From Legionella jamestowniensis (GTDB lineage Bacteria; Pseudomonadota; Gammaproteobacteria; Legionellales; Legionellaceae), in contig NZ_LNYG01000013.1 in assembly GCF_001467745.1 (NCBI RefSeq), positions 569,634 to 617,898 on the forward strand: a stretch of DNA of 48,265 nucleotides, in the 5' to 3' direction. Shown here piece by piece: positions 29,121 to 29,507 of this stretch. Below the pieces are notes generated by a model, which worked only from the letters and a program-made list of their open reading frames with translations, had not been told where the DNA came from and did no database searches. Positions within the stretch are counted from its first letter, which is position 1. Each line of letters opens with the position of its first letter. A program made the translations under genes and the position numbers.

Positions 29121-29507
29121 TCATTCCCCTTTTAACTTTAATTTCATACGCTTTACTACTTCTTGATAACCATCCTCGATTTGCAATGCAACAGGATATC
29201 GAGTTCTAGGTATTTCTAACTGATTAACTAGCCACAAGTAATCAAATTGTGGGTGTTCTTGGATATTATTTCCCTCAAGCCGACGACAAACTAACTCTGC
29301 AGCAGCAACTAGATAAGGATTCCCATAAGCTTTAAATCGAGCTTTAAGTATTAATCCCTGCCTGTCACACTGCAAATAAAAGTCAAATACATCACCTCGT
29401 CCTGGCTCTCCACCGCGGTAATACACGCTTAAAGGTTCAGTTAAATCGATAACTCCAACATGTTGAGGCGAAAAAAAACAACCCTCTAAAAGATCATTAT
29501 ACATCAT
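29121..29507 (-). CDS. IscU-like scaffold protein lacking cluster cysteines
   Basis: A 128-residue protein of the IscU/NifU-N fold. ATG 29507 overlaps the TGA of the desulfurase gene (ATGA), so this start is preferred over an upstream in-frame one. Alignment by eye: IscU's start and NPRNVG match MMYNDLLEGCFFSPQHVG; PACGDV becomes EPGRGDV (Cys37 to Arg, Asp39 kept); ARFKTYGCGSA becomes ARFKAYGNPYL (Cys63 to Asn); KIHCSILAED becomes RYPVALQIED (His105 to Pro, Cys106 to Val). All three cluster-binding cysteines are therefore gone while the fold signature persists. It cannot be a normal Fe-S scaffold. An adaptor or regulatory role with the adjacent desulfurase is possible. Confidence 0.82.
   Translation of the reverse strand: MMYNDLLEGCFFSPQHVGVIDLTEPLSVYYRGGEPGRGDVFDFYLQCDRQGLILKARFKAYGNPYLVAAAELVCRRLEGNNIQEHPQFDYLWLVNQLEIPRTRYPVALQIEDGYQEVVKRMKLKLKGE

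Follow-up and report, generated by a model that had tools for sequence, protein, structure and literature searches.

A ligand-less IscU homologue beside iscS in Legionella jamestowniensis as a probable docking-only partner of the cysteine desulfurase

IscU is the textbook scaffold for iron-sulfur (Fe-S) clusters and is regarded as defined by its three cysteines; its LPPVK motif is the HscA site. SufU is the partner of a cysteine desulfurase, and frataxin/CyaY and IscX have a fold different from that of IscU. The available parts of two reports describe that TusA and IscU of E. coli are competitors for the desulfurase IscS, with IscU displacing TusA, and that IscU alone lifts desulfurase activity slightly and lowers IscS-TusA activity (PMC2854127, PMC11302665). 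The window described here is a stretch of 48,265 nucleotides, taken at its full length, from the genome of Legionella jamestowniensis (3.34 Mb; labelled G000, where G-numbers denote genomes and L-numbers loci). Between the genes for IscS and an A-type carrier, it encodes a ligand-less IscU homologue, here named iscU*. The iscU* family discards the three cysteines and keeps the desulfurase-docking positions. Judged from sequence evidence, iscU* is likely to be a docking-only pseudo-scaffold: it would bind IscS and tune it, leaving the building of clusters to the SUF system. The gene and its former ligand codons are listed below; the codon coordinates were derived by hand, counting from the start of the open reading frame (ORF).

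29121..29507, minus strand: iscU*, IscU homologue without cluster ligands, 128 amino acids (ORF, profiles, alignment, model)
29187..29399, minus strand: stretch of iscU* with the former ligand codons and codon 107 (alignment to E. coli IscU)
29397-29399, minus strand: iscU* codon 37, Arg
29319-29321, minus strand: iscU* codon 63, Asn
29193-29195, minus strand: iscU* codon 105, Pro
29190-29192, minus strand: iscU* codon 106, Val
29187-29189, minus strand: iscU* codon 107, Ala

The preliminary description, made from the letters of this DNA alone, was right about the ORF, its strand and coordinates, and about an unbroken frame with ATGA coupling to iscS. It had also read Arg, Asn, Val and Pro at the positions of Cys37, Cys63, Cys106 and His105, and alignment with E. 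coli IscU agrees: the window protein has R37, D39, N63, P64, Y104, P105, V106 and A107, leaving none of the IscU ligands. Its own cysteines (Cys10, Cys47 and Cys74) occupy no ligand position, and by the LPPVK/HscBA test it likewise differs from IscU, having IPRTR in place of LPPVK. iscU* scored 31.5 bits against Pfam NifU_N (cut-off 22) and 37.9 bits against TIGR01999 (iscU), under the curated cut-off of 192.4, and gave no match to TIGR01994 (SufU) at E 0.001. The defining tests of ligands and cut-off place it outside the IscU scaffold family, to which it is nevertheless homologous. The AlphaFold2 model has a confident IscU fold (predicted local distance difference test, pLDDT, 93.8); together with the NifU_N score and the locus order, it bears out the earlier reading of an IscU-like protein between desulfurase and A-type carrier. 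The best matches of the model are IscU/ISCU chains, of which the desulfurase-bound ones are closest. The VIA score of apo IscU is lower (2l4x, 11.9), but the apo rows are nuclear magnetic resonance (NMR) models, and the higher score of the desulfurase-bound chains is therefore weak evidence on state. Structure 7mhv is from Legionella pneumophila.

Matches to iscU* were found in 37 of 93 Legionellaceae genomes, including 10/10 of its genus with its own genome counted, and in 45 Legionellaceae records. Fifty-three Legionellaceae loci, selected for carrying iscU*, were read closely (L103 is the record of L113, so that 52 are distinct; the intact locus L080 was left out of set A2 and included in later sets), and in all 53 iscU* lies between iscS and iscA in an unbroken frame. 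No cluster cysteine is retained in 51 of them, and one of three is present in the other two (L107 keeps C63, L108 has C106). Position 63 is Asn in 46 loci, Ser in 4, Asp in 2 and Cys in 1, and it is followed by Pro64 in 53/53. Since the helix of the model (residues 64-77) begins at this proline, the former ligand position 63 seems to have become a helix cap.

The median pairwise ratio of nonsynonymous to synonymous substitution rates (dN/dS) of iscU* is 0.15, about three times that of iscS, over pairs that overlap and are not independent. Ten residues are invariant across 30 iscU* sequences. The IscS-facing residues Tyr3, Phe11, Lys59 and Gly62 are kept, and the published IscS-contact positions proved to be the conserved positions of iscU* in comparison with positions drawn at random, ignoring neighbourhood in sequence. 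iscU* is probably a partner of IscS. A sequencing error or pseudogene was rejected, because the ligand loss is shared by 51/53 loci, dN/dS is 0.15 and the IscU fold is confident; the earlier argument that this is not simple decay was upheld on the same grounds, and the proposed check for conserved substitutions revealed no close relatives retaining the cysteines. Six stretches in viral_contigs matched a pattern, and none encoded a relative.

Class-level searches revealed 15 further ligand-depleted IscU loci in 11 other gammaproteobacterial families, hand-picked from weak or profile-like matches and not a random sample. This count leaves out L229 (a fusion), L231 (SufU), L232 (a further NifU_N protein with cysteines), L234 (canonical, and counted there) and L270 (a second, N-terminally incomplete copy). 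The 15 loci retain none of the ligand cysteines in 4 cases, one in 7 and two in 4; Cys37 is lost in 15/15, Cys63 is kept in 8 and Cys106 in 7. An adjoining iscS was found in 12/15. Ligand patterns differ between families, and therefore the losses, as read from residue patterns, came in different orders across lineages. Side by side with the intact copy L269 in G297, a 1.0 Mb genome, stands L270, a second ligand-less copy whose 77-residue ORF reads identical to the end of L269 when compared by eye.

Residues of the IscU folding switch also change with ligand loss. Two canonical IscU sets served for comparison, the first with n=32 (E. coli, L234 and 30 top-scoring loci) and the second with n=20 lower-scoring loci. 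Ser107 is present in 32/32 and 20/20 of them (52/52), and Ala107 in 15/15 ligand-depleted loci of other families and 47/53 of Legionellaceae. Asn90 occurs in 31/32 and 20/20 canonical proteins and is absent in 68/68 ligand-depleted ones, and Lys89 is lost in the same 68/68. According to the accessible part of PMC13423590, N90A and S107A move E. coli IscU to the structured state, and K89A favours disorder. The trend to the folded state is therefore not uniform, as loss of Lys89 goes the opposite way.

The C-terminus of IscS varies together with iscU*. The two relevant features of the window are as follows.

29504..30667, minus strand: iscS, cysteine desulfurase, 387 amino acids; Lys207 and Cys329 kept, tail matching E. 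coli residues 387-404 absent
29507..29539, minus strand: 3' end of iscS, coding for the C-terminal helix QVGRLQEISPL, which corresponds to the helix at which IscU docks on E. coli IscS (sequence comparison and the available part of PMC2854127)

The same source, as far as available, states that deletion of residues 376-404 of E. coli IscS abolished IscU binding (PMC2854127). The tail 387-404 is complete in all canonical IscS rows (28/28 from the first IscU set and 14/14 from the second), absent in 53/53 iscU*-bearing Legionellaceae, and shortened or divergent in the 12 other ligand-depleted loci, where Asp395 and Trp401 occur in 0/12. The docking helix is retained with iscU*, both in Legionellaceae (Leu380 53/53, Lys/Arg379 50/53, Pro385 47/53) and in the 12 others (Leu380 12/12, Lys/Arg379 8/12, Pro385 10/12). 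It is mostly eroded in 20 Legionellaceae loci without iscU*, with Lys/Arg379 in 6 (1 Arg, 5 Lys) and Pro385 in 1. An IscS tree was built by a quick search with the tail columns removed and 28 of the 53 iscU*-bearing loci included, leaving 37/68 inner branches open; the helix motif is present in 26/28 of its rows with iscU* and in 1/20 without, and the iscU* state changes three times in Legionellaceae. The window IscS is nearest to L. brunensis among the rows of this tree. Eight Legionellaceae loci that have iscS without iscU* (L180, L183, L184, L185, L186, L187, L189 and L190) also showed no iscA within the stretch retrieved; loci with iscS alone are perhaps a further step of ISC (iron-sulfur cluster system) reduction.

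A natural fusion of the two proteins was found in a gammaproteobacterium (G152), where L229 3012-4718 (minus strand) is one frame of 568 amino acids. Its IscS part covers residues 1-385 and keeps the helix WLRARSP, and its IscU domain covers 435-546 and has no ligands. This domain was matched by profile at E 2e-17 (one-sequence search) and by Pfam NifU_N at E 8e-4 and 20 bits (cut-off 22), and alignment places Phe at 11 and Ala at 107. In addition to suf genes, this genome carries another IscS-like gene (G152:C3, 41% identity).

In the window genome, locus L272 has an Rrf2-type suf regulator followed by sufB, sufC, sufD, sufS, sufU and a SUF-associated gene, and its SufU has three intact cysteines and matches TIGR01994. 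The preliminary description had called for a second intact scaffold or SufBCD, and this locus supplies both. A canonical IscU elsewhere in the family was rejected, as none scored above the cut-off in 136 genomes of the order. The HscB profile found no match in this genome and matched 1/93 family genomes (G016, 24.2 bits, cut-off 22.1). HscA was below the cut-off here and passed it in 1/12 relatives (G144, from another family), the only one of 12 genomes in which isc ferredoxin was matched; it was not found in the window genome. All nine genomes checked for SUF outside the family (eight of the others and the fusion genome) have sufB, C, D, S and a cysteine-bearing SufU. A conserved non-ligating pseudo-scaffold with true scaffolding by SUF, as proposed from the letters, is therefore supported by conservation, fold and sufBCDSU. 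Four findings go beyond that proposal: hscBA and fdx are missing, the C-terminus of IscS co-varies, ligand-depleted IscUs occur in families other than Legionellaceae, and one is fused to IscS.

The remaining genes around iscU* are as follows.

28749..29117, minus strand: iscA-type carrier, 122 amino acids, three cysteines
30781..31509, minus strand: trmJ, adjoining the isc genes upstream, as it does in E. coli
31729..32517, plus strand: suhB-like gene, flank of the isc region, named from synteny and position

The neighbours are intact as first described, with Lys207 and Cys329 in IscS and three cysteines in IscA. The iscS/iscU* overlap is ATGA, and three bases separate the iscU* stop from the iscA start. 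The order suhB / trmJ, iscS, iscU*, iscA is that of the E. coli isc region (L195: suhB, trmJ, iscR, iscS, iscU, iscA). The locus is not a complete isc operon (iscR, hscB, hscA and fdx plus iscSUA): only iscS-iscU*-iscA is there, and iscR, hscB, hscA, fdx and iscX are absent at this locus, iscR and iscX not having been searched genome-wide. The RNA fold 3' of iscA has a z of -1.59. An RNase P RNA class A lies at 26508-26880 on the minus strand (Rfam RF00010, 347 bits) and explains the short overlapping ORFs at 26540-26894; similar ORFs occur in some other Legionellaceae loci.

The preferred reading, a docking-only pseudo-scaffold, draws on the ligand loss, purifying selection, the kept IscS-facing residues, the absence of HscB and isc ferredoxin from the genome, the kept docking helix and one fusion. 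On this view SUF has taken over the assembly of clusters, and iscU* would be left over from the former ISC scaffold. It would stay folded without metal, with N63-P64 replacing the ligand loop, Ala107 present and Asn90 gone, and would dock on IscS at the old IscU site, where it would modulate the desulfurase and hold no cluster. Docking on IscS, as physical binding in the cell, appears quite probable. The likeliest effect would be to gate the passage of sulfur from IscS to the acceptors of tRNA thiolation, or to shield or position the persulfide loop; this is expected because E. coli IscU competes with TusA and barely activates alone, and by that analogy gating is suggested tentatively as the specific effect. 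Among the roles offered at first, a regulator or activator of the desulfurase appears to fit best, and a sulfur-transfer adaptor is weaker because not one cysteine is shared by every member (Cys74 in 50/53 Legionellaceae and 5/15 others). For SUF-dependent gammaproteobacteria, the chances seem evenly balanced that the IscU fold has repeatedly given up its role as a metal scaffold and become a regulatory, metal-free subunit of the desulfurase, with ligands shed step by step, the folded state fixed by an Ala in place of Ser107 and by loss of Asn90, and, in one case, fusion to IscS.

Several observations weigh against the pseudo-scaffold. Position 103 of the 53 loci is Lys in 2, Gln in 28 and Arg in 16, and the part of PMC2854127 that was available reports that charge reversal of Lys103 in E. 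coli IscU breaks IscS binding. Leu380 persists in 13/20 loci without iscU*, and the three independent iscU*-loss pairs resolved on the IscS tree give a mean agreement with the helix state of 2.8/3, too few for significance (median sign-test p 0.25). Synonymous diversity is 0.23 in the last five iscS codons versus 0.58, so residues 382-386 may be conserved in part because their codons hold the ribosome site of iscU*; the value for codons 376-381 is a normal 0.55 and shows no such DNA-level effect. The fusion was seen in one genome, the sole representative of its family examined, and an assembly fault may therefore account for it. Lastly, iscU* is dispensable, as 56/93 family genomes have no match (some genomes being incomplete). 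This figure also favours the view that iscU* is a functionless evolutionary relic persisting by translational coupling between iscS and iscA, as do the 20/20 loci read in which iscS stands without it and a dN/dS about three times that of iscS. Such a relic is nevertheless unlikely given the dN/dS of 0.15 itself, the ten invariant residues in 30 sequences, the frame found in 53/53 loci, the same Ser107Ala change in other families and the natural fusion to IscS.

A re-wired scaffold or sulfur relay, in which iscU* would bind metal, a cluster or persulfide through Cys10, Cys47, Cys74, His16 and Glu71 of the Legionella core, would agree with the frequency of these residues in the 53 Legionellaceae loci (Cys74 50, Cys47 45, Cys10 40, His16 51, Glu71 51). 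However, Cys74 is Ser or Ala in the divergent Legionellaceae copies L108, L109 and L110, and among the 15 others Cys74 occurs in 5, Cys47 in 1 and Cys10 in 0. The three cysteines look clade-specific, and secondary structure would put Cys47 (strand end) and Cys74 (helix 64-77) away from the old ligand pole. A new metal site was rejected as a general feature, since the candidate residues are not universal, and the re-wired scaffold is rather improbable. iscA follows iscU* in 53/53 Legionellaceae loci, as would be expected if iscU* worked with a partner other than IscS, such as IscA, to which it might offer a platform. This is very improbable, because conservation falls on the published IscS-contact positions, iscA persists in 12/20 loci without iscU*, and the fusion is to IscS.

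iscU* separates the IscS-partner role of IscU from its scaffold role; if the IscU fold has indeed been turned repeatedly into such a subunit, holding and tuning IscS would be a separable and selectable IscU function. The ligand-depleted IscUs form a natural loss-of-ligand series and offer a test of the structured/disordered switch of IscU, as two switch residues change with ligand loss. Caution is called for in annotation: where a bacterium has SUF, the presence of an IscU homologue flanked by iscS and iscA does not have to mean that its ISC pathway works. In the open-licence literature, no previous description was found of either an iscS-adjacent IscU lacking the cluster cysteines or a protein that fuses IscS to IscU.

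Compared with known systems, iscU* resembles IscU (TIGR01999, E. coli) in fold, length, place between iscS and iscA, and an N-terminal helix with Tyr3, Lys59 and Gly62, but it differs in the missing three cysteines and His105, in IPRTR for LPPVK, in a score far under the cut-off, and in a genome in which hscB and isc fdx were not found. It shares the NifU_N superfamily with SufU (TIGR01994), whereas the window genome has a separate intact SufU in its suf operon that matches this profile and iscU* does not. iscU* may work similarly to frataxin/CyaY and IscX, as an IscS partner tuning sulfur release (PMC11446229, in the part available), although those proteins use another IscS site according to the available part of PMC2854127, and CyaY was found in 0/12 genomes (IscX not searched). 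M. tuberculosis, which according to the accessible part of PMC10848736 has iscS on its own together with a complete SUF system, is alike in that ISC is reduced and SUF makes the clusters; in iscU* genomes, by contrast, a scaffold homologue survives without its ligands.
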